A stretch of DNA of 64,000 nt, taken from NCBI GenBank assembly GCA_951799445.1, contig OX637297.1, positions 8,804,001 through 8,868,000 on the forward strand, written 5' to 3'. The notes under the pieces were generated by a model. It worked only from the letters and a program-made list of their open reading frames with translations, was not told the DNA's origin and did not search any database. The DNA is from Pseudisothecium myosuroides (Eukaryota; Streptophyta; Bryopsida; Hypnales; Lembophyllaceae). How positions within the stretch are numbered: position 1 is the first letter of the stretch; each line of letters begins with the position of its first letter. Positions 1 through 25,022 of this stretch are shown here, piece by piece. Both the position numbers and the translations under genes were made by a program.

Positions 1-2830
1 GCAGCCAAACTTTGCTTGATGATTTCAATTTGAGCAGGAGGAATCTTGATCTTGCAGTGTGCAGTATCTTTCTTGGTCCTACACTTCCACGCTGTCATAA
101 CAGCATCCGTGTGCTGCCAAAGTGGTAGTTCCTTTGCATCAATCTCCCAACGTAGACCTCTGCCGTTGTCCCATCCAGTGTAGAATTTTTGAATATCGTC
201 ATCTATAGCTGTTGGACGGAAGTACTGAATGCGCACAGAATTTGGATGTAGTGGATCAACAAAAGGATCAGACAACGCCCTTGCAATCCACACTGGGTTC
301 AACTCATTTTCCGCGGGAGTAATCGCAACAAAATAGCCTTCGAAGAGATCTCGAGCCACCCTGAAGGACGGTTGTGGGCGACCACTCAATGGCCCGATGT
401 ACACATCATCTTCCCCAAACTCTTCACGATCCTCTCCATCGCTGTCTAATTGATCAACCCGAGTCGCCTGAACACGAGTAGTCGGCCAGAAGCCATCCTT
501 CAAAACAGTAGAGTCAGGTAGTGGTTCTTCAAGTGCTACCTTCACACCACGCCAATAGTGCACTATATGCTCCAGTCGTCTTCGGCATTCCCCGGTGCGG
601 TCTTGGTTGCACAAGTTCTCCCAGTACTTAATAAACGCGGATATACCCTTCACAATGTCTGCCTCAGCTTTCATTGGGACTGGCAGAACTGCCTGTGGTA
701 CTCCACGGGGCCATAAACTTTGCCCCTCCGAATCCTCATGCCATAATTTAATTCCGCCACCTGCGCCTGAGGGCAACCAATCTAGGTCAGTGCACAACAA
801 TTTGTACTTCATGACAGGACAACCCGTTGAATCAAGGTAGAACTTCACTTGCTGGGGCTTTGTGTGCCCAATCATGATATGACTGCCGGCCAAAAATTTG
901 CCTGCAATGAAAGCCTTGAAATCAGGCACTTCTTCTATAAGATGGGGGATAGTAGGAATGGTTTCTACATCCATGAACGACTTCATAAGCGCAGGAATTG
1001 TCAGGAAATTTTCCTTCTTCAACAACATGCTCCATCTTCCAAAGAGCGCATCAATGTCGTCATGAGTATGACCCACAATCATGAAGTTCACATACACTTC
1101 ACGAAAAATCTTGTTTGCAACCAGTAGAGACCAGTAGCAAAAAACGTATCTGTTCTTGTTGTCCCTAGCGGCATTGTCCATTTGCACATTCAAAATGGGC
1201 AGCAAAGGCGTTGCTGGAACTAAGGTCTCCGGTGGCGGGGGGAGTGAGGCTTCACACATTTCCGCGCCCTTCAGAAGCGCCTTTGACAAATTTGTCGACC
1301 TTGCCCCCACAAACAATTGTCGAGAAGAAGACTTTGGCGGCAATTCCAAATCTCGCAATAACTTTGCCATGGAGCCAACGGTGTAGTTCGAATCTTTAGG
1401 AAACATTTCCAAGCCATAATGCGCGTACCGAACATCACCATGACCATGCGCAATCATGCCGGTGACAGCAACAGGCAATTTCGTGAGCCCGTCCAGTTCT
1501 TTAGTCTTGTGAGAGAAGACCGGGGATGCAGTTTTAGATTGGTCCATCTTGTCATGCATGATTGTCAAACACTCATGTGGAAAACTGTGCAACTGGTAAC
1601 GGTTTGCATAATACAGCTCCCTATGCGCCTGAGCAATAGCCAAGTGTCTATCTAGCCTCCTTGTCCATTTAAGAGCGCTTTCAGATCCGACAAAACAACT
1701 CTTCCGTATCTCTTGTAATCTGTCACACTCCAAACACCGAGCAAAGTTATCTCCAGGCTTCTTAACCTTGTACTCCGGGAACTTTGAGGACCTAATCTTG
1801 CTCAAGTTTGAAGTTGAAACGTCCGGCAATCCGAAGGCCGCATTTACTTCGTTGATTTCTTTCATTTTACCCTTCCATTGAAAGGTAGTGGGGAGACACA
1901 TGGAGACGACTTTGTCCCCTGACTTCAGAGTTCGGGTACGATGTGGCATGTGATCCGCCTCCTTGTCGAGGATGCACTTCAATGTTGCCGTGGCTTGTTC
2001 AGTATGCTTCCTTGGCTTCGACAAGCCCGTATTACCGTGTGCACGCGCCTCTCGATCGTCCTTCCAGTATTTCAGGTAACGATAAAATGTTGCCTCCGGG
2101 ACAGCAGCAATATGCATCCATGCTCGCAAGTACACACTAATGCTTTCAATGGTCACCATCTTCCTCCCACGTGCATCAAGATGAACTGATCTGTGCACAT
2201 CAGTCTTCATGTGGGACCTGAACTTAAATGATGAGTTGTGGTACATGCGTTCTCTGAAGGCTCGAATTTTCTCTCTTGGAAACGGCTGAACACAGTTTTT
2301 GCTGCAGCAGATTTTGCTGGAAACGAGGTTGATGGACTCTTGAGTGAGGAGCTCTTTAGACTTGAAGGCCGTCACGCGAGGTGGATTTCGAAGTAGACTT
2401 GAATAAGGCCGGGCAGAAGTTTTGTAGGAAGATTCAGAAGAAGGGCCTGCTGAGTTCTGAAATTATCCCGTAGTTCATGGTCGCGAAGACTTGCCCCAGA
2501 GCAGTGGACTCTGTCAATGGGCCAAGCCATCAAATAGTAGATTCTCTCCTCCGGGATGTCCACTTCAGAATGAGTCCTCGTAATGTGCACAGCGACGTGG
2601 GTATCCCCGAGAGGTCCATTCGCACCGAGCACGAGGTCCGAATTGACGCTATGGCAAGTACCTTCGCCAACGAGTAGACCGCCATCGTTGTACAAAGTCA
2701 CGGTTCTAGTATTCTAGAGACGACGTGGAATTCCTTCGCATTCCGGAATTTCGACATTCACGCTTTCAACCGCAGGATTTTCCTCGTCTGAATACTGCAT
2801 AGGGTCAGCTGCAATGTCAGAGGAACTCAT
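1..2830 (-). pseudogene. DUF7869-type transposase-like protein (3' end beyond the window)
   Basis: Reading the minus strand from ATG 2830-2828 gives a long protein that runs off the left edge. An acidic N-terminus is followed by a Cys-rich start (SKICCSKNC, near 2300) and then by motifs typical of DUF7869/DDE-like proteins: MHDKMDQSK near 1530-1560, QMDNAARDNKNRY near 1160-1195 and GHTHDDIDALF near 1045-1078. These Asp/Asn residues are the expected catalytic core of an RNase-H-fold transposase (family knowledge; the DNA-cutting role is inferred). The frame from about 2400 down to 1 is open for roughly 790 codons. Upstream it is damaged: a TAG at 2716-2714 and a frame change near 2400-2460. 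It is divergent from the gene at 16205, and both are flanked by the same 15-bp palindrome, which suggests one large element. An intron could explain the frame change instead of a frameshift. Confidence 0.75.
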
Positions 2831-2927
2831 GACAGATATCTGCAGAACAGGAAGCCAACATTTTGTAAGTGCTCGTCATAACGTTCATCATTTCTCTATT
2901 CAGCTCGAATCGAGCTGAATGGGATAA

Positions 2928-5900
2928 CCAATTGTCGTACGCGTAATCTAGGTGTAAGTATCTTTAACCACAAAAACGTGCTAAGATGACACAAGTTATC
3001 GTCCCAGGAGATTCCAGACGTTGCTTCAAAATTAGTTTCTCGAGACCTCTAAGTTTCCGGACTTTGACCACCTTGAGAGGGGTCCTTTCAACACACAAAC
3101 ACTTTTCCGGAACTACTTCCTTTCCGGATTTTCTTCCGGATCTGGCCCTATCCAATATTCCGGTTCTGTCTTTCTAACAAGTTGGTTTTCGATACCTCTG
3201 TTTTATCCTCAGAGGGTTCCTCACTTGCTCTTTCCGAGGGGTAGGGAACTGCACCACTCCGTATTTGACATAAACTCTAGTAACATAAAACAAAACACAA
3301 CCCAAGAATAAATCTAGTTGAGTAAACAGGGTGGCCTCCTCACAACATTCCGGATGGCCTATCCGGAAAGCTGGTCACACAGGGTAGCGTTAGGTCCTCC
3401 TTACTACAACGACGGATACCGGACTTCCGGAACTAAGGGAATGACTTCCTAGCTCTCGACCGCTCATGAGGTTGACTAGCCTTCCGGACGGGTGGAAATA
3501 TTCCTCTGGCGGTTGCCTATCTCCGCACGGAACCGCCCCTGCGAATTCCGGACTAGCTTCCGGACCACTCCTTGGTCTCCACCGGATTACCGTACCAGCG
3601 TTTTAAAGGCGCCACTTTCTCACTGCGCAAGTCTAAAAACTCATCTGCAAGACACACTTAGCCTAATCCGGCAGTCCACGAATCCGGACTCCTCCCCCTT
3701 GCACACTCTCACTTACACATCCACACAAGTGACTATAGACGCGATACGCAAGAGAATAATCCAACGAGTGCTTTCCTGAATGCTTTAGATTAAATGAACA
3801 AGGAAAAAGGAATGACAGGCCAACAAACCGGCCTGCCCTTAAAAACCCACAAAAAGGCAGCCCAAACAGTCACCAGAAAACCGGCCAACGGCCAACTAAA
3901 AAGCAAAAAGGCAACGGCCCACAAGACCGTTCCGGGAAAACTGCAAAACCGTTTAACTCCTAAAAGTCCGGAACTACTGGACCTACATCCGGAAAATCCG
4001 GTTCCGGAACTACCATCCTGGTAAGAATCCTAACTACAATTACTGCTACTGCTACCCTAGATAGTCATTTATTTCTCTTAGCCTTCTTTACAGACGTGCC
4101 ACCCTGAGCTGGCGATCCACCTGTCTTCTGGGGTGGGGTGTTCTTCGTCTTCGACCTGGTCCGAGGAGGCTGCAACTCTTCCTCCTCCGATTGAGTCGTA
4201 TCCCCCTCTTCCGATTCCGGGTCCGTCTCGCTCAGTAGCCGTCGTCCCCTTGGTTTCGGAACAGTAAGATCGATGAGCTGGGACGGTGGCGGTGTCTGGA
4301 GAAAGGACTGGAGCATGTGGGTGAAACTCACCGGATCCGTCCGGGCTGGATTCAACACCGTTCCGAGTAAAGCTGGTTCCCAGAAAGTAGAATTCACCGG
4401 TCTGTCGGGGAACAGATTTGCTACGGACGCAGTTCTTCCGACTGGGACGCCTAAGACAACATCTTTTACTGGAGTGGAGGCCGCAAACTGCTTCACCAGC
4501 GACCTCCTCTTCTGTGCCGATGCTGTTCCGGCTTGCGACGTTCCGGCGATTGTCTTGCTCTTTGCCGGAGAAGGCTGGTTCTGTGCCCCTCCTTCTTGGA
4601 GATCCTGACCTAGGTCAAAAAGGCCTTGGTCTAACCCCTCAAGCGGATCCAAGTTTCCCAACAGTTGCCGGACTTCCTTGAGCATTCCCTCAATCCGGAC
4701 TTCAAAATCCACAAGGATGCTCACCACCTTCGATCCCGCCACGTGACCATCCTTCACCATGTGATTATTCCAGAGTGTAGCTCTGGCAAGAATATCCGCC
4801 GGAGTGTCAAACAGACTTCTGACATTCCGGACCAGATCGAGGGCTTCTCCCTCTTTTGTTTCAGCGGCCATCCTCTCCTTCTCCGACCACGCAGCTTGTT
4901 CTCGAAACCGGTCCCGTTCTTGCTCCAAGGTCAGAATCCGGTCCTCCAGCTGCTTCACCGCTTCCGGATCTGGCCTTTCCGCCAACGCCACCAGGATTTG
5001 GGTTTCTTCCTTCACACCCAATTTCTCGCACATTTGCCGGATCAGCGCCGACATCCGCTCATTCTGTGCCCGGGTAGCTAACAGCCATTTGATGGTGGCC
5101 TCTAGCTGATCTGTTTCCGGAAGTGGTTCTCGGGGCTTCTCTTCCTCCTCGGCTTCTTGCTTCCCCCGCGCACCCCGATCAGTCGATTTCCGGCGCGTCC
5201 CTCCAACGTTTGGTGATGTCTGCTCCGGTTCTGGTTCCTCTTCTTCCGGCTCGAGCTCATCCGGTTCATCTTCTGCGGGAAGTCCATACCTCAACAAATT
5301 CTCGCCCTTCCGGTATATGGTCATTTCCGGTCCGGCCAGTGCATCCTCGAAGTGATACAGATGAAAAAGATAGGGGCTAATCGGACTTGACTTCTTGTTC
5401 GCGATATTGACCGCTAACTTTTCCACTACGGAGTAAATGATCACTCCCCAGCTGACCGGCCTGGGAGCCGGATTCTCTCTATCTCCCAGCGCTCCGAAAA
5501 TGGTGTTTGCCACGGTCATTGTAATCCGGGTGGGCTTTTCCGGATACAAGATAGGGATGAGGAATGCTAACAACTGCCCATCCCGGGGACTCTTACAATC
5601 ACTCGCGGTGTTTCCCTCCTTGGAATCCGCATGACTTCGGAATACCTCCACGGCGTAAGTATCCGTCCGGGACGCCATTCCGGAACCCCTGCTCGGCGTA
5701 AAGTATGCCTTCGCCCACAACTCCGGAGTCCAGGCCCTAGATCGACCCCTAATCGTCAAATCGAACTGATTACCTACTCCGGAAACCAGCTCATCAATCA
5801 TCTCTTCACTCCGGACGTTCCATGGACGTTTTACCAATCCTAAACACCCCATGATTTCTAGGTCCTCTTCTAACTCCTTCAGGCGCTCCGGATCCGATGG

Positions 5901-6418
5901 GACAACCGGACGTACGCCCCGGGCTGTCACTACCGACCTCCGGGATCGACTCGCTTCCGCCATCTCACCGACTGCTAGGACAATCCGGTGCAATCGGCAC
6001 CTTCCTCCCTTTCTCTCCCTAACACGCCCTAACTCACCACTCTTTCTCTCTTCTAACGCACCGTGGAAAAACACGGGTAAAAGAGACAGAATGAGGCTGG
6101 CGATGGGGTTTAAGTACTTGTCGGAACCCTAAGTTCCCGCCGCCAAAAACGTTCCCGTAAGTTCCCTAGCCGGAACCTGGGCGGTAGGTCCCTACGATCC
6201 GGAACATTCCGGAACTTTCCGGCTTTCCGGCTACGGTTTCCGGCAGGCTGCGTAACCTATTTAGAGTTTTATCCTTTCTACCTAGAAACTAATTTCTATT
6301 TCTAATATCTAAGTCCTAACTTTGTATTTAAATGCAAAAATTGAAAAAGTTCTGCTACTTTTATCTCCACTAAATTGCTAATTGGGACTTTCCGGATGAT
6401 ACGTACTCCCACACCAAT
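2928..6418 (-). mobile_element. Family 1 gag-like element, copy 1a (with 5-bp TSD CCAAT)
   Basis: The element occupies 2933-6413 (3481 bp). On the plus strand it starts TGTCGTACGCG and ends TACTCCCACA, and it is flanked by CCAAT at 2928-2932 and again at 6414-6418. In its own orientation (minus) it starts TGTGGGAGTA and ends ACGACA. The same ends appear in the copies at 42502 and 56319. No internal direct repeat of the ends was found by eye, so it is not a conventional full LTR retrotransposon. It has one large ORF near the 5' side and about 1.1 kb of non-coding sequence at the 3' side. TG..CA ends with a 5-bp TSD point to a retroviral-type integrase; a solo giant LTR or a Ginger-like DNA element are the alternatives. 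Confidence 0.88.
4065..5963 (-). CDS. Gag-like coiled-coil protein, intact copy (632 aa)
   Basis: This is the only uninterrupted gag-like ORF in the window. I start it at the ATG 5963-5961 (MAEASRSRR) because the same ATG is kept in the copies at 42943 and 56760; a longer frame would need a GTG start. Residues about 30-240 form a domain shared by all three families, with the signatures RPWNVRSEEMID, DGQLLAFLIPILYPEKPTRI, TVANTIFGAL and SPYLFHLYH. Next come an acidic stretch (LEPEEEEPEPEQ), a long heptad-rich coiled coil (about 330-470), a Ser/Pro-rich linker, a second acidic block and a Lys/Arg-rich tail ending KKAKRNK. The basic tail could bind nucleic acid. There is no zinc knuckle, protease, reverse transcriptase or integrase. 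'Gag-like' is an inference from architecture; I do not recognise a named family. Confidence 0.75.
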   Translation of the reverse strand: MAEASRSRRSVVTARGVRPVVPSDPERLKELEEDLEIMGCLGLVKRPWNVRSEEMIDELVSGVGNQFDLTIRGRSRAWTPELWAKAYFTPSRGSGMASRTDTYAVEVFRSHADSKEGNTASDCKSPRDGQLLAFLIPILYPEKPTRITMTVANTIFGALGDRENPAPRPVSWGVIIYSVVEKLAVNIANKKSSPISPYLFHLYHFEDALAGPEMTIYRKGENLLRYGLPAEDEPDELEPEEEEPEPEQTSPNVGGTRRKSTDRGARGKQEAEEEEKPREPLPETDQLEATIKWLLATRAQNERMSALIRQMCEKLGVKEETQILVALAERPDPEAVKQLEDRILTLEQERDRFREQAAWSEKERMAAETKEGEALDLVRNVRSLFDTPADILARATLWNNHMVKDGHVAGSKVVSILVDFEVRIEGMLKEVRQLLGNLDPLEGLDQGLFDLGQDLQEGGAQNQPSPAKSKTIAGTSQAGTASAQKRRSLVKQFAASTPVKDVVLGVPVGRTASVANLFPDRPVNSTFWEPALLGTVLNPARTDPVSFTHMLQSFLQTPPPSQLIDLTVPKPRGRRLLSETDPESEEGDTTQSEEEELQPPRTRSKTKNTPPQKTGGSPAQGGTSVKKAKRNK

Positions 6419-7640
6419 AGATATCAGAAGTCAACATAAAATGTTCACATACTCTTTTAAGGTGGGGTCCCTGTTCAACTGCGTAAATACTACTCGTTCA
6501 GGGGATCTGTAATAGATTGACCCTTAATGTAAAGGAGAGAAAATACTATTTTATATTGTAGAATGGTCAGAACCACAACTGTTGACATGAAAATATTTTG
6601 CGAAATCATTCTGAACAACTGCAGAAATGAGAATAATATGGTCAACCCCTAAAACTGACAAGATCAGATCAGCTCGATTCGAGCTAAACGACAGCCTCTG
6701 AAGAAGTCATAGAGTCTATTACATTTCTCTGTATTATAATGAGCTCAATTCAAGCTCCTTGCACCTGACAGTCTTTTTGTCTTTATATATACTAAATTCA
6801 TTACTTTTGCTAAAACAAGAAGAACTATAGATTTCTATTTTTCATAAATCATGTTACGCAAGCTTCTAGAATCAGCTCGAATCGAGCTGACCCACAGATG
6901 TGAGCTCGTGATGTACTCTTAATTCTGTGAATTCAGAATAAGTCATTGGAAGTATATTAAGCTCGAATCGAGCTAAATCGCATTCAAAAATTTCCAGAGG
7001 TTCATGATTATGTGATCGTCATTAAATTATAGTAGTTTCACTAGGACACATTCAGCTCGATTCGAGCTGCCTCCTCAAGTACAAGAATTTAGAGTGGTCA
7101 GTCAATCAGCTCGATTCAAGCTGATTAATCCCGTAAATTGCGGGACATTAAAATTATGTTCACGATTCCGTAATTTCCAGCGCCAACATCGGAGGAACCA
7201 TCACCTCCACTTCCACAAACAATTCCAGAGACGGGGAAATGAGATGCAGGATGTCTCATTCAATTGTACACCATACTGTACAACACAAACTACAATCTCT
7301 ATGGCACTCTCTCCACAGTGGACCCGTTTCTTGAACACAATCTTCTCTCAGGACTGCACGCAGAGTCAAACGTAATCTGCAATCAATTCAAAAACAGAAA
7401 TGGAGCCCGCAATGTGATGACAATAACTACATATGTTTACCGCGAGCGCTTGTGCAAATCGGAGATCCTCCTTCCAGGATTCGCCGGCCACGATATCTAT
7501 CAATGACAAATACACTCAATAATTGGACTACACCTGCAACTCAAATTGATCTACTCGACCACAGAAAGGAAGAAGCCGACGCGCACACGAGTTGATCCAG
7601 ACAACAAGAAAGAGTGAAGAAGAATTTCAAAATAGTGGAT
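6419..7640. other. Unit A intergenic flank
   Basis: This is the continuation of the upstream flank of the transposase-like gene beyond the family 1 insertion. It holds six of the palindrome A copies. A short open stretch on the plus strand at 7264-7506 (ending GFAGHDIYQ) looks mildly coding but matches nothing I know and has a stop just upstream, so I do not call it a gene. Confidence 0.5.
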
Positions 7641-7666
7641 GACGGCGTACAACCGGCTCACTCGCG

Positions 7667-7736
7667 GGAACTCGTGGGCAGGAACTCGTGGGCAGGAACT
7701 CGTGGGCAGGAACTCGTGGGCGGGAACTCGTGGGCG
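7667..7736. repeat. 14-bp tandem minisatellite, 5 units
   Basis: The unit GGAACTCGTGGGCA is repeated five times, head to tail, with A/G variation in the last base, and is followed by a partial unit. Both strands are open across it only because 14 bp units lack stops in some frames; it is not a gene. Confidence 0.9.
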
Positions 7737-8029
7737 GGAACTGCATTGGAGTAATTTAATTTTGAACGCTTATATTCTGATGGCGGTAGAAAATAGAAAA
7801 TCACCGGATTCAAGGATGACTTTGTAGCTGCACAGCCAAAAAAAAGGAATCCAATGCCGTAGGTTGTAATTATGTCACTGACATTTTTGGGTAATATTAG
7901 TTGGACACATTCCCCTCGCTTTTTCCTCAGAAAGGGTGATAACAACAGTTTCGGATTATATTTCAAACATGAATTTCGGATTTACAGGAGTTCGAAAATC
8001 ATGACATTTAGTTCCGATTTTGTACGGTC

Positions 8030-8056
8030 TTAGGGTTTAGGGTTTAGGGTTTAGGG
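8030..8056 (+). repeat. Interstitial telomere-type repeat (TTTAGGG)n
   Basis: Nearly four uninterrupted units of TTTAGGG, the Arabidopsis-type plant telomere repeat. It is isolated inside intergenic DNA, so it is an interstitial block rather than a chromosome end. It supports a plant-lineage (streptophyte or other green) origin. Confidence 0.85.
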
Positions 8057-8110
8057 TACCAAGCACACCCTCACGGGATGCACGGTCCAAGAGATCTGAA
8101 CGTGACATAC

Positions 8111-8152
8111 AAACAAAACAAAACAAACAAACAAACAAACAAACAAACAAAA
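8111..8152 (+). repeat. (AAAC)n microsatellite
   Basis: About ten units of the tetranucleotide AAAC/CAAA in a row, slightly irregular at the left end. Confidence 0.9.
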
Positions 8153-9831
8153 GGTATGGATTGTAAAATACAGTACCTCTATATCCCCTTAATGCCCAAG
8201 GCCTCTATGTAGCTTCTTGAAGTTTGCTCTGAATTGAACAAAAAGTCAACATTTCATAAGTTGTACCAATTTCTTCTGAATTGTAACCTTACATATTGAA
8301 ACTAGACATGTTACAGATCACATAGGGGGAAAAAACATAACAATATCACGTACAAATTGAAAGATTATAATGTTTGATCATGAGGGTGTTAAAACTAAGA
8401 AAAATTTTCAATTCTATTTTTGCATGTCAACTCTAAAAAGATCGTCACTCCAAAAATATGAGGTTGAAGTGCGTAGCTTGCACAACCACAATCAATTCAT
8501 GGTTTTTCAAAATGTAGTCTACAATTTTTTTAAATGAATTTCGAAGGTCATTTTTCCTCAAACATCTACTGTATTTGAGGCTCATTTCGAAGAGCCTTCA
8601 ACACTACGGGAAGTCAATATTGCAACGGGTATGCTTGCACAAAATCTTGAATAGCAAAATCATAATCCTTCATTAATTTTTAGGATCAGCTCCTTGATCC
8701 TAAAACTAGATTTCAAAAAGAGTAATTTTAAAATTTTAAACTACTAAAAATAGCAACTTCATTGGATTTCACTTGACTTCAAACTTCTCGAAATACCAGA
8801 AACTGGTGACTCGGGCATGTAGGGGATGAAAAAAAATCTATCATGTACATTAAATAAATCCAATCCCATTAGTCACTATTGTGTCCTGCGATGTCACCAC
8901 AACCAAATAAAGGGGGACAAGTCAATTTTAAAACAAAAAAAGGCCTCAAAAGTCTATAACTTCTCTAGTATGATAAGACTACGCACTACGAAACAAAGCC
9001 CGTGCTCCCCTCCTTGTCAAGGGCTTTCAAATGGTATTCTTTATGTGAAAAAAAAATATTTTGTCTAACTTCGGCCTTATTAATGTGACCCAAACATACG
9101 GTATGTGTATAAAATAATATAACTCATATTCTATTGAAGGTGATGTCTTTGATCTTCTTTGACAATATTGTTAAAAAAATTTACCGCTGTGAAAAGAAAA
9201 TGTATACAATTTAAATGAAAGATAAGCAAGTTCAAAATTCATGTGAAAAATGACATGTTCAGGATCACTACGTGAGAGATGAGATGTAGCTGATGAGTAA
9301 AAGGGGTGATCCTCATTGAAGGCTTGTGTGAAATGAAATCCTTCGGCATACAACTACAAGGACTTCCCAAACAAACTCATGAAGTGAGTGACATTTGCTT
9401 AAATGTAGTGACATTCTAATAATTATAGAGACATTTTTATAAATGTAAAGACATTCCCATAAATGTGAAGACATTGACATGAATGACTTTGGCAATTTAC
9501 TAGGACCTCTGAAATCAAGGGTTAACGTAATTGCAGTCAATTTTTTATTGTTTCTTATGTATTGCACGAATACATTCAATTGGTACGAGTTCGAAATTTG
9601 CTACACATTTGACATAACCAAGGGGTCATTCTTCCTAATCCATACCTACTTCCAAATTTAAAAAATAATACTATAGGCACATGACTTTGTTCAACTGTAG
9701 TAAGCTTTGAATAACAATGGAACATCTTAGACATTCAAATAAGATTAAACAGACTGCAATGCGATCGAGCCTCGGCCAGCCAAACAGCTTGGCTGTACCT
9801 GGCGCTCTTGCATGCAACGACAGCCCATCCA

Positions 9832-10090
9832 CTTCACTATAGGAAACTGACGTTTTATGTGACGAGCCCTAATTTTTTATGACGGATTCTAGGTGATTGA
9901 TGTCAATGTTGACAACCACAATTTTCTATGTCAATAAAAATGTACAATGTAACATCAATGTTGACATAAAAACATTGGATTGGACATTTTTGTTGACATA
10001 AAAAATTTTGGTTGTCAACATTGACATCACCTACAATCCGTCATAAAAATTAGGGTTTATCACCTAAAATGCGGGTTTCTTATAGTGCTT
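9832..10090. mobile_element. CACTA-type MITE, 253 bp, with TSD CTT
   Basis: The element is 9835-10087. It starts CACTATAGGAAAC and ends as the inverted form (GTTTCTTATAGTG), and is flanked by CTT at 9832-9834 and 10088-10090. The terminal inverted repeats extend about 85 bp with small differences and include TTTATGACGGATT and TGTCAATGTTGACAACCA. A CACTA terminus with a 3-bp duplication is diagnostic of the CACTA (En/Spm) superfamily. It is too short to code for a transposase. Confidence 0.9.
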
Positions 10091-11050
10091 GTTGACCCTT
10101 TCATTGGACTGACAAAAGCGGAATTAGTTAGCAGTGAGCTCCTGCAGTGTCCCCGTTGCTGGTCTTCTAAGCCGTACGATACCATCTCCCTTTCAATACT
10201 ATAGGACATTGAAAAGCTTACTCCGAGACAAGAGTGGTATCCGAAGCATCTGCAATGTATGTAGAAAGTGACTCCGCCAGTTAGTAGGACTTTCTTCGTC
10301 GATAGCGTTTCATACTTTTCATATTATCGTGGAGAAGTTCATTGAAGGGAGCAATCACTTAAGTGTTCTATTCCCTAGTTCAGAAAAGGCTCTCCCCCCT
10401 TTACCTACGGAGGCTTCAGATTTGCGGTACAAATCATACTGGCGGTCCCATAGTTTTGGAGGACAGAAGGCATTAATGAGCTCGAAAGTTGAAGGCGATC
10501 CTCTAGAATGATGTTTTCTTTTCATCAAAAATGAACTTGTTTGTGGGAGAGGGCAACAACTGAGAAGAACATAAAGCATTGTGGGTCTTGCCTACCTGAA
10601 ATTGGATTCCAGTGGACAGAGGAGTGTCCAATACAGAGCTTGTCCGAAGCTTCATGCATATGGAGATCACCTCCTTTCAACATTATTTAAGCACCATTCG
10701 TTCATCGGAGCCATTGAGGAACACATTTTCTGGTCCAAAGTACTAATATGAGAACATGGCAAAAACTCGCTACGGGGAAGGATTTTGCTGATCATTGGAT
10801 GAATTTTTATCGTTTGGCAAGACAAACCGTCAGTATGAAGGATCGTCAATTGGAGTTTACTTTTCGTCTCACACTTCTAACTTTTTGTGATGTGAACTAT
10901 CGGCTTCTATTTCTGCTACTGTGTGTTGCTGTGCATGCACGCGACTTCCAAAGCACAGTCAACCACCCTACGAAAGTTATAAGCTTACGAACGAGGCGGA
11001 ATTTAAATGTTCATCCCAATTGCTTATAGAATTCAAATGGGTTACACATT
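10091..11050. other. Intergenic DNA, possible decayed coding remnants
   Basis: Short open stretches on the plus strand (10329-10511 and 10748-11029) have coding-like composition, but I recognise no domain and no splice structure. They may be remains of an old element; no function is proposed. Confidence 0.35.
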
Positions 11051-11064
11051 TGGGCTCTCTCCTC

Positions 11065-12135
11065 TAAAATTACAAGGAGAACATCACATGAACACCCCCT
11101 TGTCCTTTGTTGTACTTCAATTTTAAAAAACTATAAAGCCATAATAAAAAATAGAACAAGGAGGATATTAACAGAAATATGTACAAGTTGCAATTGTTGG
11201 AAACATTTGAAACCCATGAGCTCCTCCAATTTGGACCTCCACTTCTAAAATTAAAAAGGAAAACAAAAAACAAATACCGGTCATCCTTTGCTGTACTTTA
11301 AATTAAATAAAAGTTTAAAGTCATGAAATTGGACCGAGGAGGAAATATAAATATATGTAGAAGTTGCAAATGTGGGAAACATTTGAAACCCATGAGCTCC
11401 TCCAATTTGGACCTCCACTTCTAAAATTAAAAAGGAAAACAAAAAACAAATACCAGTCATCCTTTGCTGTACTTTAAATTAAATAGAACTCTAAAGTCAA
11501 GAAATTGGAACGAGGAGGAAATATAAAATATGTAGAAGTTGCAAATGTGGGAAACATTTGAAACCCATGAGCTCCTCCAATTTGGACCTCCACTTCTAAA
11601 ATTAAAAAGGAAAACAAAAAACAAATACCCATCCGACTTCGCTGTACTTTAAATTAAATAGAACTCTAAAGTCAAGAAATTGGAATGAGGAGGAAATATA
11701 AAAATATGTAGAAGTTGCAAATGTGGGAAACATTTGAAACCCATGAGCTCCTCCAATTTGGACCTCCACTTCTAAAATTAAAAAGGAAAACAAAAAACAA
11801 ATATCCATCTGGCTTCGCTGTACTTTAAATTAAATAGAACTCTAAAGTCAAGAAATTGGAACGAGGAGGAAATATAAAAATATGTAGAAGTTGCAAATGT
11901 GGGAAACATTTGAAACCCATGAGCTCCTCCAATTTGGACCTCCACTTCTAAAATTAAAAAGGAAAACAAAAAACAAATATCCATCTGGCTTCGCTGTACT
12001 TTAAATTAAATAGAACTCTAAAGTCAAGAAATTGGAACGAGGAGGAAATATAAAAATATGTAGAAGTTGCAAATGTGGGAAACTTTTGAAACCCATGAGC
12101 TCCTCGAATTTGGACCTCCACTTCAAAAATTGGAA
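11065..12135. repeat. Satellite-like tandem array, ~176-bp unit, ~6 copies
   Basis: A unit of about 176 bp repeats head to tail; a conserved block CATGAGCTCCTCCAATTTGG recurs near 11215, 11392, 11568, 11744, 11920 and 12096. The first and last units are diverged and the middle ones nearly identical, as expected if unequal crossing-over homogenises the centre. Identical 68-codon open frames recur on the minus strand at exact 176-bp steps; they are a by-product of the repeat. Confidence 0.92.
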
Positions 12136-13680
12136 CGAGGAGCAAAAAAAAATACCGCTAAGTAAAGACATCCGCTGCTGTAGGTTGAATAACTAAAAAC
12201 TGTAGAGCCATTAAACATGAAATATGACAACTCTTATGCTATGAAATATAATATTTTCCTTTTGAATCCATTTGAACTTCTTCTGTCCGCAAAAAAAAAT
12301 TGGGAATGAAATGTGTCCTATATTTTAGTCACCTTGAATATGAGTTGTCATGGATTCGTTTATGTGAATGCTTTATTTTTATTTTGAAGGAAATTTTACC
12401 CAATCATTAGAACTTTTGTAAATTAAAAAATAAAGACCATGATATATTACTATGTTCATGAATCCTACATGAATGTTTATATCATTTTGAACTTCTATAT
12501 TTTTTCCTTACACAACCCTATATCAAATTTATCACTTCTTGCTCTTAAATTTTTTGAAATACAACAGAAGGTCAATTGTTTATTAGACTCTTTTTGTAAA
12601 TTAAGAAATGTAGCCAATGATTATAGTGTGCTTTTACAACTACACTCAATCTATGAATAGTTTCCAACTTCTATATTCTATTTTGAACACTGAAGCCTAC
12701 AAACTTAATGATTTGTTTTTCAATTCTTTCAAATACAACACTTTCATTAGATTAAATTTATTTTTGCTTCCTCTTATAAATGAAAAAAACTAATACCATG
12801 CACATACTACATATAATAAAAATGTTTATTCATGGTTGTTTTTATAATTGGAACGCCTCGGTACTATACAAGTAACTCTAGGAATTACCAATTGGGTCTC
12901 CTTTTGCATGTATTATGGAAGACAAACAATTTTAAATTTAGGCCAATGTTGTTATTCAATGTGTATTCTTGCAATTCTATCCCAAATGTGTTTAATGTGC
13001 AAAGTACTTTTACATCAAATAAATTAGCATTAGTTGTTTTCAAGAAATTAGTGGATAGTGTCACTCATTATCAGTAAACAAACTTTCCACGGTCAACAAG
13101 TAGGTATTCAAGGGTGACAGATTGACATTCGGATCCCTATCAAATTTACTAGGGATTTGAATGTGCTCCATACAATACATTGTTAAATTAGATTCAATAA
13201 GTCATGAGAATTAGGGTGCCTTATACCAAGAAATATATACTTTTCCAAGCCATTGACGTGAATACAGAATACTGTAGATACTTCAATTTCTGTGGCTGCA
13301 GGTTTATGATACAATTACATCAATATTTAATTCAAAAGTACTTATATATAATAATATTGACCTATTTATGGAATGTCAATTTCAAGAAGAAAAACTAGCT
13401 CGCTCGTGTAGGATGAACTACACAAAATAGTGAAACTAAATTGCCTTGACGATTAGGTTGCCGTACTTCCAGAAAATTACTTTACAAGAAATTAGAGTCA
13501 ACAAATCTTTCTACAAATCTTTTTGTTTGTATATTATATGGAGGTTCATCAGTTCCAATTACAACAATACTTAATTCCGAAGTAATCTATTCTTGTAGAG
13601 GAACAATAAATGTTTATATAGTGTAGACGGTCAAGAAATTTGTAATGGGCAACCTAATTTCACTATTTTGTATAGTAGGG
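12136..13680. other. AT-rich intergenic DNA
   Basis: Strongly AT-rich with only short, low-complexity open frames. I see no conserved domain, inverted terminal repeats or promoter that I could defend. Confidence 0.5.
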
Positions 13681-15290
13681 TGAAGGTACTAGAGTTTAGG
13701 GCAACGTTTGGGCTTGGTGTGGTTCAGGGCCGGTTATCAATTATGGAGAAGGCGGGTATTTAGAACCGGTTACAAGTAGGGGATCAATCGTGGTCGGGCG
13801 GGTATCAACCGGATATCTGGTGTGAATCGGGAAGAGGGCTAGGGTTTTGTAGATTCATGGTTAGGGTTTGGCGCTCACTTTCTTCAGCGTAATTTTCTCC
13901 AGTCTGTGCTTAGCGTTTCTTCAGATTCTGTTTTTGTTTGTTGTTTCTCCCTGTTTGCGCGCGCGCCTGAGATATTGAGGAGCGTGGATTCCGTTCGATT
14001 TTGGAAACCTGCAGCGCTAGTGACGACGGAGGTTTAGGCGCGATTTAAGCTTCTCAGCTGACGACGGAGCTTCTTCCTCGCGTTGACAGCCTGGTGCGTG
14101 GAAGCTTCTTCCTCGTGTTGATAGACTTGTGCGTCGAATTTGCAGTGGGACGACGGAGGTTCTTCCTCGCGGTGACAGCTTGGTGAGGGGCTTCCCATCT
14201 TCATTTTTTCCTCTTGTTTCCTCTGTTATTCTTCTATCCAGTACTTGCTATTTTGTATTAGAGTTTGTTTTGGGTAAAGGTTGTGGTGGCGGGAGGTTGA
14301 GCATGCATTCAACAAGTTATGAGTGGGGACGTGTTTCTAGGGTTAAGTGCGATCTTCTTTATTTTGCTTTTTCAGTCGTTGCAATTGTAAAATGGAGGGG
14401 TCTGATTGAGCCCAGCAACATGTTCCAGTGAGCCTTCATCTGGCTGAGGTTTGCTTACCCTGAATGTGGGAGTTCCCTGTCAGTCACAACTTTAGAGCCG
14501 TGTTGATGACCTCATTAGAAGCGGTGTATTTTGGTTCCATTTTGCGATGACTAACTTTTTGTTTGGTGTTGTAGCGTGCAGTGACGACTACTGGATTTGT
14601 ATCCGACCTTGGATCTCGTGAAGCTGTCTCATGAAGCCAGGTCGAGGGAAGAAGTATTATGGAGTTCACGGTGAGTTTGTTCTCATCAATTGTGAATTGC
14701 TCTTGAATTGTGCTTTGCTTGGTTGGCTTCTTGAAGATTGTTTGTCATTGTCTGTTGGAAATGCATTTACAAGTTCCAGAGTTTGTAGTTGGCTAAGTTT
14801 GTTGTTGAAAAGTATACGACTCTTAGGGTTTCCACAGTTTCATGTTGCTGGAATTGCTTGCAATTAGTAGGCTTCATAAGGAATGTAGGTGATTAGGGCT
14901 TGAGGGCTTAGTAAAGGCTGCATTCGAAGACATTTCAGTTCTCATGTGTGATAATGCCATAGATCTGTGTGATTGTAGGTTCTATTAGTACCTAAATCTT
15001 TGAATTTGAGTTCTTTAGATCCAAATGAAAACGTGAATGTAATAGTGGTGGTGCTATGATTTTAAATTTTCGCCTACAGAAGGATTTGGGCATGTGCTTA
15101 GATTACACAAGTTGTGGTTAGGATTCACAGTGAGGATTGTGCAAGGATTCTGGTTTGTCATGTCTGTAGGGTCTGGTTAGGGTTGGGGTTAATTGTGCTT
15201 CAAGTCTGTAGGGTCTGTGCAGGGTCTGTGTAGGGTTTGTGTCGATACCCCTGTTCTAGGACCCCCCCTGCTTCAAAGAGTGTAGCTCAA
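13681..15290 (+). other. Possible leader/promoter region of the unit A plus-strand gene
   Basis: The composition changes to GC-richer DNA. An imperfect repeat, TGACGACGGAG followed by CTTCTTCCTCG and TTGAYAGCYTGGTG, occurs three to four times between 14018 and 14180. A candidate exon end is visible: ATG 14631 and then a good donor, CACG|GTGAGTTTG, at 14671. If spliced to the AG at 16202-16203 this ATG would be out of frame with the main ORF, so at best it would be a leader exon. G-rich repeats of GTCTGTAGGG follow at 15170-15240. Confidence 0.35.
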
Positions 15291-15299
15291 AGCACATTT

Positions 15300-16162
15300 A
15301 GCTCGAGCCGAGCTAAATTTCAGTAACCTAATTTATGAAATTAGCTCGACTCGAGCTAAAATCAACAAAACCTGGCATGAAAACACAGAACACGCCCATA
15401 TAAAAGCCAGGACACCCTGAAAATCAGCTCGAATCGAGCTAATTTGAAGCAAAGATATAAGAAACCACCCATTTAGCTCGACTCGAGCTAAAAGAAAAAA
15501 AGATTATAAATAATAAACAATAAAAGAACCAAAATAAGTAAGCTTGAACCGAGCTAGGAGTACAACACTGTAAAATATTAACAAAATATAAATTGGGGAG
15601 AGGAAGTCAGCAGAGTGCTGAACATAAAATGAAGCAAAAAAAGAGCCAAACGGACAAATGCACGCAGAGGGACACGGAGAGATTTACCTCGACTCGAGCT
15701 GAAGAGGAAAATAACTCGAGTTAAGAGTTAAACAGAAAAAAATCAATTAAAGAGAATGAAGAACTGACTAAACAAGAAGTAAGAAGGTGGCTATGAACCT
15801 CGACTAGCGGTTAAATCAAAAGAGCCCACCCTGTCAGCTCGATTCGAGCTAAATACATGAAACGGGAAGAACATGAAAACAAAAGAAGAGTTGAACACGG
15901 AAGCTCGAATTGAGCTGAAAACTCATATTCTCAGAAAAAAAGATACAGAATAAAGGTCAAATCCGTAACAAGCTAAATGACAAGGCGAATGCAAAAGATA
16001 GACATGAATAGGGCAGCTAGAAAGAAGTCAGCTCGATTCGAGCTAACGAGACGGCAGGTAGAAGCAAGTGCAGAACGAGGGGTCTGGCATTCAAGGAACT
16101 GGAAATTTATGAGGAACAATGTGTGGCAACTGTGAGGTTGAATATTCAGCTTGATTTGAGCT
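15300..16162. repeat. Palindrome A cluster, right group (12 copies)
   Basis: Full or near-full copies of AGCTCGANTCGAGCT lie at 15300, 15343, 15426, 15475, 15541, 15686, 15836, 15902, 16030 and 16148 (15 bp each). Weaker half-palindromes are at 15711 and 15798. The middle base pair varies (A, T, C or G) and arms carry occasional transitions, while the outer AGCT and the TCGA core are kept. The cluster lies immediately upstream of ATG 16205, mirroring the left cluster upstream of the transposase-like gene. Confidence 0.9.
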
Positions 16163-17650
16163 AGCATCGTCTTGAAAGCTAAGCAATGGTTGTCATGCTA
16201 CAGGATGGAGAGTCAGGTCGAGAAACTCACGCACTACTACAAGAAGTCCGAGGTCCAGCGAGTGGAAGACGAAGGGAAAGGAGATGACTTTCTCAATGAC
16301 GGAGAATACTGGGAGTTCGTGTATCTAGAGAAGGTGGATAGCTGGACTCTCCTGATGATCCCATGCTCTGAGCAAATTTGCTTCGCCGTGAAATATAAAG
16401 GGATGGACACCTACCTCCCTCTCTCATATGACAAACGAATAAAAGACATTGTGGAGGACGTCTTTCCCACCATCAAGGTCCACTGTATAACAACCCAGAA
16501 CGACCTTCCAGCAGACAAGCAATACAACTTCACGCTGCATTTCGACTCTCGTCTGATTCCGTTCCACGTGACCCATTTCATAGAGTCCCTGTCGACAACG
16601 TTGTTCCAGGATAAGATTAAGGAATTGGAGGAGAAGGTGAACGAGAAGTACTTCCAGAAACCTAATGGAGAGCCTCTCACTAGTCGGAGGCTATGTGCAA
16701 AAATCCGAGGTCTCTTCCAGGACTTTGCGGTGCTCAGAACGAAAATCCAGCTCGACCGTCAGAGCAAGGCTGCTAGGAGCGTCTCACTGAATGCCAGAAG
16801 CCAGGGGCCCAGTCAGGTGTCTATTGACAACCAGACCCAAGGGCAGACATCTCGAAGGGGCACGCGGAACAAGCAGCCAACGGAAACTCCGAACGTTCCA
16901 GTTGCAAAGAGCAATTTGGCTAGCACATTAGCGGCAAAAACAGCTGAGAAAACTGGAGAGCACTATGCTGCGGACGATATAAGCCAAGACATGAGTATCG
17001 TCCCAGAGTCACTGCAGACAAACCGGAACCCGGACTACGAGGAGTCGAACGAGGCGTATAAGAATTTCTGGAAGACCTGCGCAGATGTGTTTCTCTACAA
17101 GATGGAGAAGAAGGAGCTCACAATTGACAAGCTGATCCAGGCTCCGGCGTCATTAAATATCCAGAGCAAGGAACAGACGATCATTGAGGGCTTGATGCAC
17201 TACCTATGCAATATGCCCAACCACAGTCACCGGCAAACGCTCTGCGTCATGCTGACGAAGAAGCCAACCAGGGAAGGAGACGACTCGTGGTCCGAGATCA
17301 AGGACGGGGAATTCTACATCATCAACGGCCAACACAGTGTCTGGGCCAGCAAGCTAATGGAGGACCCAAAGTTCAACATTGACCTGGCCACGATCAAAGA
17401 CTTCAAAACCTAGAATTGCTACATTGCATGGACGGAGGACAAGGAGACACTCCGTTCTATTTCGGCCTACTTCAACAAAGTGAACCATTTCCAAGCGATT
17501 CAGCCGTCGTGGGCCACTAACATACTGGGCGCCCGAAATGTCTGGGAGGAGATGGGGTCACCGCACAACCCGAAAGAAAACATAGAAGCCGGAGCTGTCA
17601 GCAACGCAAGGCGCACTAAAGTTGCATTTGAGAACAAGAAGAAGTGGACG

Positions 17651-17796
17651 GTAAGTGATTCAGCTCGAGTCGAGCAGAACTACGCTATGCTGGCTACTGT
17701 GAATTAGTTGTTGACTGCATGGTCATTACCTTGTTGCAGATCAGCTCGAATCGAGCTAACAAGGATCCTGACGTTGGTTTCCCGTTCTATATGCAG
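17651..17796 (+). other. Intron 1 of unit A gene, with two palindromes
   Basis: Donor GTAAGTG and acceptor TATATGCAG join ACG to GAA in phase 0. The intron holds palindrome A at 17662-17675 (last base altered) and 17743-17757. The paralogue at 23324 begins with the corresponding exon (AFHPSMATTF against EFTTAMQMRF), which supports the acceptor. Confidence 0.75.
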
Positions 17797-19149
17797 GAAT
17801 TCACTACGGCCATGCAGATGCGTTTCTCTATGATTGACGTTACGAAATCGCATCAGAAGTCCAAAGCCAAGGACTCAAAAGGCAACACCTCCATCACGAA
17901 TGAGATTAGGCTCATCACCGCTCCTGCAGAGGTGTTCAATCTCTGGAGCGAGGTCATCTCCAGTGCTGCGCATGGCGAGCTCATTGACGCGGACTCCTTG
18001 AAGAAATTCAATGTCAGATCGTCCTGGAAAACCGAGAACGGGATGCTAAACAAGGAATTCTTCAAGTTCTTCGGAAATCTCACGAACGAAGACCTCATTG
18101 TGCTGGCCAACCACATTTTGTTTAGAGATGGTGATAAGAGGATGTATCCTCACCCGAAGGTGACGATTAAGCAGTCATCGTCAGTTCTCGAAAGCTGTTA
18201 CGCTTCGAAGGATTGGATTGAGAGGCGCAAACGAAAGGCGTTCGTGAAGAAGGAGTTGAACAAGATTGATCCGACATTGGGTCTGCTGAACGCGGTGGGG
18301 GAGCCTGTCCAGGACAAGTGGAAGGACTTCAAGAAGAAGTACAACATCACCTCCGCCACGCTGAATGTACTCTTGGAGCGGCCTGGGGAGGCCTTCTTCT
18401 CCGAAGTGAAGCAGAAGAAATCGAAGAACAAGTCCACGGAACAAATTTCGGACCAGGCAGCCGAGTTCTTCAAAGTCTTCTTAAGTCAACGGAAGAATTT
18501 CGTCCCGCCATCGGCTGTGGCGCACTACGCACCATACGACATCGCAAAAGACCACCACGCTTAGTGGCCAAGGGGTGCGTGGACAGTTGACAGCCCTGCA
18601 GATCTCGGGCTCGGTGTTATCGATTTTCGGTACATTCCGGGGGTGCTTTCGAAGAAGGACGGGACAATCGCAATTCCGTACTTCAGCACCGTCAGTGTGT
18701 CTTTGAGAGGGAAGCAGCAGCCGAAATTTGAGGACGTCCCGGCCTAGCTTTTTATGTGCGCGGACATGCAGGAGCAGACGCAAGTGATTGCCTTCGTAGA
18801 GAACAATGATGTCCTCAAGACGTACAAGTGCACGTTCGCGGACTACATACCGGGACAGTACAAGCGGATGGGGGACATTGCCTCCGCCAAGGCGAAGTTG
18901 CATGACAAAGTGCTGTTGACGTTTTTGACGAGTCCTGCGTGTACGAGGGGTGGCAACATTCCGGAGTTGTTTCTGGCTCCGGACAATGATACTTTCAATA
19001 AGCCCCGGGGGTACAACGAGTTGGAATTCCGTCTCTACAACACGGAGCTTCACATGGAATTTTATCTGTGGGTGATAAAGAAGTTCTGCTCTCCCGGAAT
19101 GAGCGTGTTCTTTGTCTTTGCAAGAGGAAAAGTGACCTGTGCAGTAGTG

Positions 19150-19371
19150 GTAAGTTCCCTATAGCTCAATCAGCTCGAATCGAGCTGATGTATCACATCC
19201 GGTTGTAGTGTTTCCTTTTGTTGCGATATGTGTGACTCCTGCATGATCCGATTTGTTATGGAACGAATTAGCTGGACTCGTCTTGAATCACCGAGGGGTT
19301 TAGCTCGAATCGAGCTGAAGCCACTCTGTATTCTCAATACTGACGTCCTGTGATAATTTCTTAACGTACAG
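19150..19371 (+). other. Intron 2 of unit A gene, with two palindromes
   Basis: Donor GTAAGTT and acceptor CGTACAG join GTG to ATG in phase 0. Palindrome A is present at 19172-19186 and 19302-19316. The paralogue has an intron at the equivalent place (24689-24788). Confidence 0.75.
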
Positions 19372-20332
19372 ATGAGTTCTGTGAATGTTTGGGCGGTTGG
19401 AGTTGCCAACGATACGGGGTTCTGGAATGATATTTCCCAGGCGGCCATGAAACTAGACAGGGCCGACTTCCTGGAGGGGGGATATAAGGTGCCGACGCCT
19501 TCGCGCAAGAAGCCTCCGGTGTCTCAAACGACTCCATCGTCGTCGCGGAAGAGGAAACACTCACCCTGGGATTCACCATCCACTAGGCGGCGCAAGAAGG
19601 CGCCAGCTGCAGAGCCCGAAGTCCTCTCTGACGACGAAGGCGACGAGCAAGACTACTATGTCCAGCAGGTGCTGGACGAGCAACTTGTGGTGGACGCCAG
19701 CACTCCGGTTCCTCCCACTCCGATCGAACATCGGGGGTCGTCGGCCTCGAGCGGTCACGTGCAAGAGGAGCAGCCCTCAAGCACGCCTTCGTCTACCGTC
19801 ACTCCGAAGAAAAGGAAGTTGTCGAAGCGGGACGAATACTTGGAATTCAGGTTCGCGGAGCTGGAGCGGAGACAACTGGAGGATCACGCGGCGAATCTAC
19901 AATTCTAGTACCAGCAGAACACGAGGATGGATAAAATGCAGACGTACATGTTGGTGGATTCTGCAAACAACACCGACAAGCTGGACTCGATTATCAATCA
20001 CTTGAGGGAGGCGAGACCACTCTCCTCATTTGAGCCCTCGACGCCGAGGCCGCAGCTGCTGCTTGAAGGTCTGCCTTCCTTATCAGGCGATGTGGCTCCA
20101 TTGGAACCTCTGGGTCTCCCTGGGTTTGCTATTCCGGCACTTCCTTTGCACCCACCTCCTATTCCCCCTCCGCCCCCGCCATCATCAGCTGACGCAGAGG
20201 CGGCTCCTGCCGACGCACAGGCGGCTCCAATCCTTCCAGTCGCGGGAGGTGCTGACGAGCAGCTTCCGGTCGAACAGCCAACGCAGTTAGATCTGCAAAG
20301 TCCCGCGGTGCCTAGCCAGAACTTGGGCGCAG

Positions 20333-20592
20333 GTGCTCCTCAATAATCACTCGATGTCACTTGTACAGTTTAGCTCGACTCGAGCTGATTTTTGCCATAG
20401 GTTGTATGTAGTTGTATGTAGTTGTAGTCGTTTTGGAGAGACTACAATCATTTTGCTCAAACGGAACTTCCAGTGGACTGAACCATGGAGTTCACACATT
20501 TTGCAGTTCATTCATTTATTTATATCTCATTTTATGAGGCTCTAATATACGGATTTCTCACGAATATTTCCTTGTACATTTTTGGCATGCAG
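20333..20592 (+). other. Intron 3 of unit A gene, with one palindrome
   Basis: Donor CAG|GTGCTC and acceptor GCATGCAG join in phase 1 (G|GC) and keep the frame open into ANIIDSVSPP. Palindrome A lies at 20372-20386. Without this intron the frame would end at a TAA at 20344. Confidence 0.65.
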
Positions 20593-20870
20593 GCACTGCA
20601 AATATTATAGATTCTGTTTCTCCTCCCGTCCCTGATCCTGTGAATACTACTGCTCAGCCTGTGCTTGGTCCGGTGGAAAGTGATCAGACTAATCCCATTG
20701 AATGCAATGTCCTCGTGGCCGTCCTTGAGCTTGGACCGTCCATATCTCTTACACCGGTCGCAGATGACGTTGTCATCTCAGATGCGAACCTGCTGGAGAT
20801 TCGCATTCCAGAGCCGGCCGTCGTGGCGACAGACGCTTCCGTGGAGACTACAGAGGCGTCGCAGCAGAAG

Positions 20871-21045
20871 GTATAAATCATGCTGTTCATTTGGAACCTT
20901 TTGGGGTACTCTTTTTCTATGTTCATTTTTGTTTTAAGAATGATTTAGTCAACTCGAAAATGAGCGTCCCCGTCATTATGTGTGAAGTTCCAAATGTGCC
21001 AGTACAGGGTAATAACTGGCTGCACATTTGTCTATTGTCTAGCAG
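20871..21045 (+). other. Intron 4 of unit A gene
   Basis: Donor AAG|GTATAA and acceptor GTCTAGCAG join in phase 0, leading into the HAD-phosphatase exon. I see no complete palindrome here. Confidence 0.65.
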
Positions 21046-21910
21046 GAATCCGGTCCTTCTTGTGATGTAGGAGGAACTTCGGAGGCAGTCGATCGTCCAT
21101 TGACGTCCAGGGTCGTGGAGAAGTGGATCAACGTCGTCCTGGACCTCAATGGGATATTATGTGTCTGCGAAGATTTGAAGTTTAAGGGTTGGTCAAAACG
21201 CATCCCCGATGCCGTTCAGCCGCACTCGGCTATCAATCCCGCCGTAGTGGGACCCAAGCTAGTTTACGTTCGCCCGGGATGTTCCGAGTTCCTACGTCAA
21301 TTAGGCAAGATTGCATCCATTTCTGTGTGGAGCTCGATGAAGAAGTCCACCACCAAAGAGGTGGCGAAGTATCTCTTCGACGGACTGGATAGGCCTTTGC
21401 TGATTCTCGGACAAGACTCCTGTAAGACGCTTAAGTGCAGAGATAGGACGGGTAGACCGTCGACATACAGGGAGCCAGGCACGGAAAAGGAGTTGTTTCT
21501 TAAGAACCTAAATAACCTGTTCACTGGCATCTGGGGTAGATTCAGTGCTGAGAACACAATCATCGTGGACGATAGTCCAAATAAACACATTCTCAACAGC
21601 TCTGAGAACGTCGTTTTGCCTGAAACGTGGACGAATAGCGGACATGGTCCAAAGGACACGTTTCTCCTGGAAGTCCTGCTGCCTTGGTTTCAGGGCCTGC
21701 ACCCAGCTCGAGAGGAAGGACTGAAGGCGTTTAGGGGAACGGCGGTTGCTAGAATTGGTCGCCGGATGCTCTGCGACGAGAGAAACCATCGGGAATACGA
21801 TAAGCTGATGGAGATCGTCACAGCGTCGACATTTATTCGCTAGAACTAGAGTGAGGGGTTTGTAGCTTAGGACGTACGGATCTGCGGGTATTTAGATTCT
21901 TATGTAATTC

Positions 21911-22043
21911 AGCTCGAATCGACCTGATTTGCACATTTTGGAACTACCTGATGGGTTGCTTTCTCCTTAATCCAGAAAATAAAAATATTATTCTAAAGTT
22001 TTGCGTCGTGAACTTTGTGCCTCGACTTAGCTCGGATCGAGCT
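21911..22043. repeat. Palindrome A, two copies downstream of the HAD exon
   Basis: AGCTCGAATCGACCT at 21911-21925 (one mismatch) and AGCTCGGATCGAGCT at 22029-22043. These are the last copies of palindrome A in the window; everything to the right has palindrome B instead. Confidence 0.85.
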
Positions 22044-22793: not shown

Positions 22794-23174
22794 GGTCTGT
22801 TCATATTGTAGATTGAGTGTCTATAGGTACATGCATAATAGCATTGTGTAGATATTATGTAGAACTCAAGTGCTAGAGTGAATCACACTCATGACAATTA
22901 TATACGTTTCTCTGGTCTTTTAAGGATCAAAAAGGAATTGCCCTACAATTTTATATTGATCCAAAAATTTACTATAAATAGATGACCTTTTCATAATGAA
23001 TGTTGTACTCTTGTCCATGTTTCAGCAAACACTCCTTGTTGTTGGTATTCTTCTCTTCTATTCTGATAGTTTTGATACGGTATTTGTCCATTATTTCTCT
23101 AAAAGTTAGTTCTCGCAACTCTCATTTCACTGGAAAACCCTCATTTTAATGAATATAATGTTAGATAGTGGCTC

Positions 23175-23249
23175 ATCGTGATATCTCACGATTTCCTGTT
23201 GCCTAAACGGCTTTCTTGTGGTAACTGAGTGATCGTGGGATCGCACGAC
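23175..23249. repeat. Palindrome B, two copies upstream of unit B gene
   Basis: ATCGTGATATCTCACGAT at 23175-23192 and ATCGTGGGATCGCACGAC at 23232-23249. This is the first appearance of palindrome B, 75-150 bp before the first recognisable unit B exon. Confidence 0.85.
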
Positions 23250-24688: not shown

Positions 24689-24788
24689 GTATGCACTACA
24701 ATGATTGTTTTTTCTTTTGTTCTTCTGATAATCTCAATTTTGATTTCGGGGATTTGAATGTTACTAATTTCCAGTTGTTGTATTTCAG
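24689..24788 (+). other. Intron in unit B gene
   Basis: Donor TTG|GTATGC and acceptor TATTTCAG, phase 0. It sits at the same point of the methyltransferase-like module as intron 2 of unit A and as the intron in the unit C copy (about 63040-63150 on the minus strand), which argues for common descent of the three genes. Confidence 0.7.
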
Positions 24789-25022
24789 TATTTGGAAGGT
24801 GTTAAAGTGCTGGAAGTTGTAGATTCAGCGGAAGCGAAGACGTTAAGTCAGGTCTTCGCCAAGCAAATTTGGGACGACAAACATGCGCAGGCGGCACTCC
24901 TTCCTCTTACGGAGGCTGAACACAAGGACGAGGAAGTTGAGAGTGATGATGAAGATGCTGTAGTTGAAGACATCACCCAACACAGACCGGGTTTAGGAAC
25001 AAGGTTGGTTGAGCACCCTAAG

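Follow-up and report, generated by a model that had tools for sequence, protein, structure and literature searches.

A 64-kb stretch of the genome of the moss Pseudisothecium myosuroides (the window, C11:8804001-8868000; negative window positions lie to its left) contains a 15-bp palindrome, AGCTCGANTCGAGCT, that a previous reading made without database searches (the sequence-only reading) had described as repeated about 24 times across one 19-kb unit. This unit is a DNA transposon of approximately 20 kb, here called family A, with terminal inverted repeats (TIRs) of approximately 25 bp and 4-bp target duplications. It is larger than had been proposed, extending from window position -552 to 23162; its left end and left TIR lie outside the window at C11:8803448, and its right TIR (23138..23162, minus strand) is flanked by the 4-bp duplication AGAT. 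The TIR was found at 143 ends genome-wide with at most one mismatch, and duplications of 4 bp (AGAT, TGAC and TTTA, by eye) were present in all three copies in which both ends were read. A 4-bp target-site duplication is a trait of the Sola superfamily, which family A matches in duplication length, the sole point on which Sola was compared.

The left gene of the element (<1..2830, minus strand) encodes a DUF7869 protein, a putative transposase, that occupies two frames here and runs uninterrupted for 946 aa in copy c1. This protein gave a weak match to an RNase H-like core and is probably the transposase; our literature search found no publication on DUF7869. The right gene, on the plus strand, begins with an exon (16172..17650) that encodes a predicted ParB-fold domain with the box YIINGQHSVWAS and contains a stop at 17411 in the window copy. 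It continues with exon 2 (17797..19149), the end of which resembles the S-adenosylmethionine (SAM)-motif region of N4/N6 DNA methyltransferases, and a proline-rich exon 3 (19372..20346, its end placed by eye); a NIF/HAD exon (21043..21843) that is CTD-phosphatase-like follows. Exons 2 and 3 are interrupted in the window copy, and the bounds of intron 1 (17651-17796) and intron 2 (19150-19371) were set by eye.

With up to two mismatches, AGCTCGANTCGAGCT matched 24 times in the window, in agreement with the earlier count, and every match lay within 2902-22043 with none to the right, as had also been noted; 100 shuffles of the window gave a mean of 0.16 and a maximum of 2 such matches. The extended site consensus is approximately TYAGCTCGANTCGAGCTRA. 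Seven sites, exactly as many as previously counted, lie at 2902-7122: one at 2902..2916, which corresponds in copy c1 to a site 72 bp ahead of the first ATG of the left gene, and a cluster of six at 6671..7122, with counterparts in copy c1 356-793 bp upstream of the same ATG. The right cluster (15300..16162) precedes the right gene by no more than approximately 0.9 kb and contained 10 sites instead of the twelve or so that had been reported. The remaining sites stand singly, two of them in intron 1 (17662..17676, directly past the donor, and 17743..17757), two in intron 2 (19172..19186, also directly past the donor, and 19302..19316; splice sites by eye), one 3' of the exon-3 frame (20372..20386) and two 3' of the NIF/HAD exon (21911..22043, starting at 21911 and 22029), which bears out the earlier placement of copies in introns 1 and 2 and after the HAD exon.

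The first ~3.4 kb and the last ~1.1 kb of the element are free of sites, and the earlier suggestion of subterminal transposase sites was rejected on position. In En/Spm, the element protein TNPA binds many short, CpG-containing subterminal sites, and a large transposon with many short repeated sites invites the idea that here, too, the sites serve the transposase or a helper in synapsis or excision. However, the moss sites are found not subterminally but within introns and ahead of genes, they are dyads, and the proteins involved are different, so that we consider such a role very unlikely. It is still harder to believe that the palindrome works as an RNA hairpin in introns and not as a DNA site: AGCUC-GANUC-GAGCU could give a 5-bp stem, and sites adjoin the donor in two introns, but 17 of the 24 sites are upstream of the two genes, and the putative loop, the site-centre pentamer GANTC, is itself conserved and symmetric in family A.

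The sequence-only reading had set the site clusters upstream of two divergent genes, which was correct for both clusters; the left member of the pair is the gene at <1-2830. The minus-strand open reading frame (ORF, 4065-6074, 669 aa) beside the left cluster was rejected as the divergent partner because it is part of a later, separate insertion of 3.48 kb (2933..6412, with TG...CA ends and the 5-bp duplication CCAAT by eye). This insertion does not belong to the palindrome system and is absent at this place from the three compared element copies. The insertion is possibly a non-autonomous element of the long terminal repeat type; two near-identical copies of it occur elsewhere in element copy c2, and several more relatives of its ORF were seen in and around the window. 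In its middle part (11175..12131), the element has a 176-bp tandem repeat (5.4 copies) that contains no palindrome site. No array from the tandem-repeat scan overlapped the family-A sites, and a tandem-repeat origin of these sites was rejected, in keeping with the earlier remark that they are no ordinary tandem repeat.

Genome-wide (388 Mb), exact AGCTCGANTCGAGCT was found 688 times, versus 0 for the reversed pattern. The genomic context was examined for 50 of the 688 sites, all 50 on contig C1, and 49 of them fell in element copies (three large copies, one diverged copy of 75-90% identity and one truncated copy); among the sites examined, the motif thus goes with the element and not with unrelated regions, and other copies of the element carry it as well. 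The remaining site was in an apparent host-gene intron. This intron (L024:4602-4932) bears five consecutive sites in which AGGTCGAATCGACCT and AGCTCGAATCGAGCT types are intermixed, and beyond them no similarity to the element was found there; the array may be a remnant or may have been co-opted for regulation, and the host gene, judging from the peptide, is presumably one for a Deg-type protease. Among 93 sites in four copies, 24 of the 44 arm mismatches were C>T or G>A at the two CpGs. Stops within the exon-1 frames of genomic copies were frequently TAG or TGA. Both patterns would fit a decay of copies under cytosine methylation.

Exon 1 has at least 85 matches in the genome, 64 of them at 69-100% identity and 21 at 43-46%; these counts are lower bounds, with 84 of 488 candidates scored. 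Many of the listed element ends, along with 26 of the 28 exon-1 matches of 69-88% identity, lie on contig C11 (16.9 Mb), possibly a sex chromosome or one rich in repeats. Two of the 21 distant loci were read, with protein identities of 46% and 44% (one locus each), and both carry AGGTCGANTCGACCT in places corresponding to those of family A, that is, upstream of exon 1 and twice inside intron 1. At arm bases 3/13, family A has C/G in 23 of 24 sites, whereas the two relatives each have G/C in 8 of 9 sites (counted with up to two mismatches elsewhere in the word). Paired changes of both arms with the dyad kept, site after site, are the expected trace of a co-evolving dimeric DNA-binding protein.

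Family A sits inserted in an outer, related element, the left-gene protein of which is approximately 33% identical. The right part of this outer element (23163..28782, plus strand) contains sites of a third palindrome, TCGTGGGATCCCACGA, at 23176, 23233 and 25753-27449, as well as a NIF ORF (28240-28782); the ParB-like exon of the outer element (-1683..-838, left of the window) has the box YYVISGQHTVQAF and a profile E of 5e-5 among 1601 frames. TCGTGGGATCCCACGA occurred 16 times at up to two mismatches in 22 kb of the outer element, whereas 40 first-order resamples averaged 0.0. At up to three mismatches, the same 22 kb contained no family-A site. Allowing three mismatches for TCGTGGGATCCCACGA, seven sites are directly to the right of the left-gene frames (their 5' side), six are upstream of the ParB-like exon and three directly follow it. 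Four sites at 25753-26092 are exactly 108 bp apart, so that tandem duplication may have enlarged part of this array, a mode of growth also described for VANC targets. An inverted-match scan did not find the TIRs of the outer element. A more distant DUF7869 relative lies to its left, at -36497..-35610 (profile E 1.6e-16).

The persistence of place and dyad at 44-46% identity, the paired arm changes and the separate palindrome that the outer element carries in a similar layout support the earlier view of a binding site under selection. The idea that the element exploits sites of a host transcription factor has the five-site host intron in its favor. We regard this as highly improbable, given that 49 of the 50 examined exact sites fall in the element and that a single host factor would not explain three palindromes in different families of one genome.

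Homologous proteins from other genomes were examined using predicted proteins that run past the splice donor, of which 24 (exon 1) and 75 (exon 2) were aligned. The tail differed from the site by at most one base in 7 of 13 usable sequences for exon 1 and in 20 of 45 for exon 2, compared with 0.4-1.7% in body pieces and shuffles; each tail count includes the query, and some of the proteins may come from the same or close species.

The fold of exon 1, predicted from the open copy c3, matches ParB N-domains (ParB/Srx, ParB-CTPase fold). A partition-type site had been another of the earlier suggestions, and the predicted ParB-type fold of the right-hand product bears it out in part and unexpectedly, as regards the fold and not partition; ParA was absent from the Pfam results of the element proteins scanned, which covered part of the element. 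The Pfam scan of the ParB-type exon gave no significant match, with one of 24 members matching DUF6551 at E 0.063, a domain named among ParB-fold fusions in the accessible part of PMC12704722. Searches of PDB sequences with the element proteins returned nothing significant. For exon 2, a profile built from the open copy c1 and homologues matched an N4/N6 methyltransferase profile with a probability of 82% and E 1e-5 for one pair, over 48 of 542 columns and stopping short of the catalytic motif. Profile searches of exon 2 against Pfam and PDB were non-significant (the two PDB rows, with E 0.43 and 0.51, were arginine methyltransferases aligned to the stretch of the methyltransferase match), and a Pfam scan gave no accepted match, the best (Tugs, E 0.0013, 3 of 32 members) being judged chance. 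SAM motif I, DPFxGSG, was not found in the family consensus, which reads S.F.G.K where DPFAGSGT is expected.

It is conceivable that the right-hand protein contains an active DNA methyltransferase with the palindrome as its target, by which the element would label its own DNA with 6mA or 4mC. GANTC stands at the centre of the sites in family A and in its two relatives, and GATC at the centre of those in the outer element; both are classic adenine-methylation sites. The exon-2 profile match points in the same direction, and algal ParB-methyltransferase proteins have been proposed, in the available part of PMC12477816, to bind and modify their own element. However, the degraded SAM motif of the moss protein and the short extent of the profile match make this explanation unlikely.

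We favor, with a probability of about 0.68, the reading that the ParB-type accessory protein encoded by the element's rightward gene has the palindromes as its cognate sites, would co-evolve with them and would use them in autoregulation or anti-silencing. This reading starts from the enrichment of the sites, their element specificity among those examined, their layout, the paired arm changes, the predicted ParB fold and the methyltransferase similarity; from these we infer the ParB-type protein as the binder, its action as a dimer and its regulatory or anti-silencing role. As a dimer, the protein would occupy the dyad AGCTCGANTCGAGCT at the two divergent promoters, within introns and downstream, and the element would recognise its own DNA through these sites, regulating both genes and probably resisting or redirecting host silencing. 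The NIF/HAD phosphatase, whose exon closes the unit, would perhaps assist, possibly acting on the transcription machinery. As sites and protein co-evolve, each transposon family would come to have a private palindrome. Methylation of the sites is possible, provided that the degraded methyltransferase is still active.

Several points weigh against this assignment. The sites could instead be bound by the left-gene product or by a host factor, and one host-gene intron also bears sites. The exon-1 model is partial (mean pLDDT 61.3, with 191 of 515 residues below 50), and its best Foldseek E was 1.3e-3. The canonical ParB box is GERR, and GQHS in its place makes nucleotide binding uncertain. The outer element gave a weak ParB-like match of 18.9 bits and no frame resembling exon 2 at E <= 1, and TCGTGGGATCCCACGA was chosen from the stretch in which it was counted, so that the enrichment test was not blind. 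The two relatives are represented by one locus each and the outer element by a single copy, and 7 of the 20 exon-2 tails are near-identical, which leaves fewer independent cases.

The moss element and its relatives in the same genome offer candidate pairs of protein and site in which specificity would be switched naturally, from C/G to G/C at arm positions 3/13, which makes recognition of a transposon by its own accessory protein directly testable. Our literature search did not find palindromic sites of this kind, their covariation or a moss example; searches on ParB with transposons and moss gave nothing relevant among the papers listed, those on domesticated ParB gave nothing, and the available part of PMC7466625 mentions no such element.

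ParB-parS of bacterial partition shares with the moss element the ParB N-domain fold (predicted in the moss) and a palindromic DNA site, whereas the moss element is a eukaryotic transposon with GQHS for GERR, many dispersed sites and no ParA among the proteins scanned. A ParB-parS-like clamp that loads at the palindromes, closes in a nucleotide-dependent manner, spreads over the element and excludes silencing, with families diverging into mutually exclusive protein-palindrome pairs, is a doubtful extension of the self-recognition that we propose. ParB-fold proteins fused to N6_N4 methyltransferases occur in phages according to PMC12704722, in the accessible part of which the term 'transpos' is absent. 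A ParB-methyltransferase accessory gene is described, in the available part of PMC12477816, from algal giant transposons such as Sola1-1_Ec32 of Ectocarpus, which has in common with the moss element a DNA transposon of ~20 kb and one large protein that combines a ParB-like domain with an N4/N6 methyltransferase-type region. The moss element differs in its host, its DUF7869 putative transposase, its degraded methyltransferase motif and its NIF/HAD exon; moreover, it has palindromic sites with covariation, and that part of PMC12477816 names no DNA site for the algal proteins and mentions neither feature.

A further likeness, which we draw from the sites, is to VANC, the anti-silencing proteins of the Arabidopsis VANDAL elements. 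As described in the accessible part of PMC5735166, VANC21 binds YAGTATTAY in noncoding VANDAL21 DNA and VANC6 uses other motifs, and motif co-evolution is known for VANC. Both systems have short, element-specific motifs in noncoding parts and introns that differ by family, together with an element-encoded protein, which in the moss is of the ParB-type fold. VANC motifs spread by tandem repeats, and 'palindrome' is not mentioned in that part of PMC5735166, whereas in the moss most sites are dispersed dyads. Judged by its sites, the moss element looks like a VANC-type self-recognition system, and it hints at a second arms race of this type, with a ParB-type protein, in a bryophyte.

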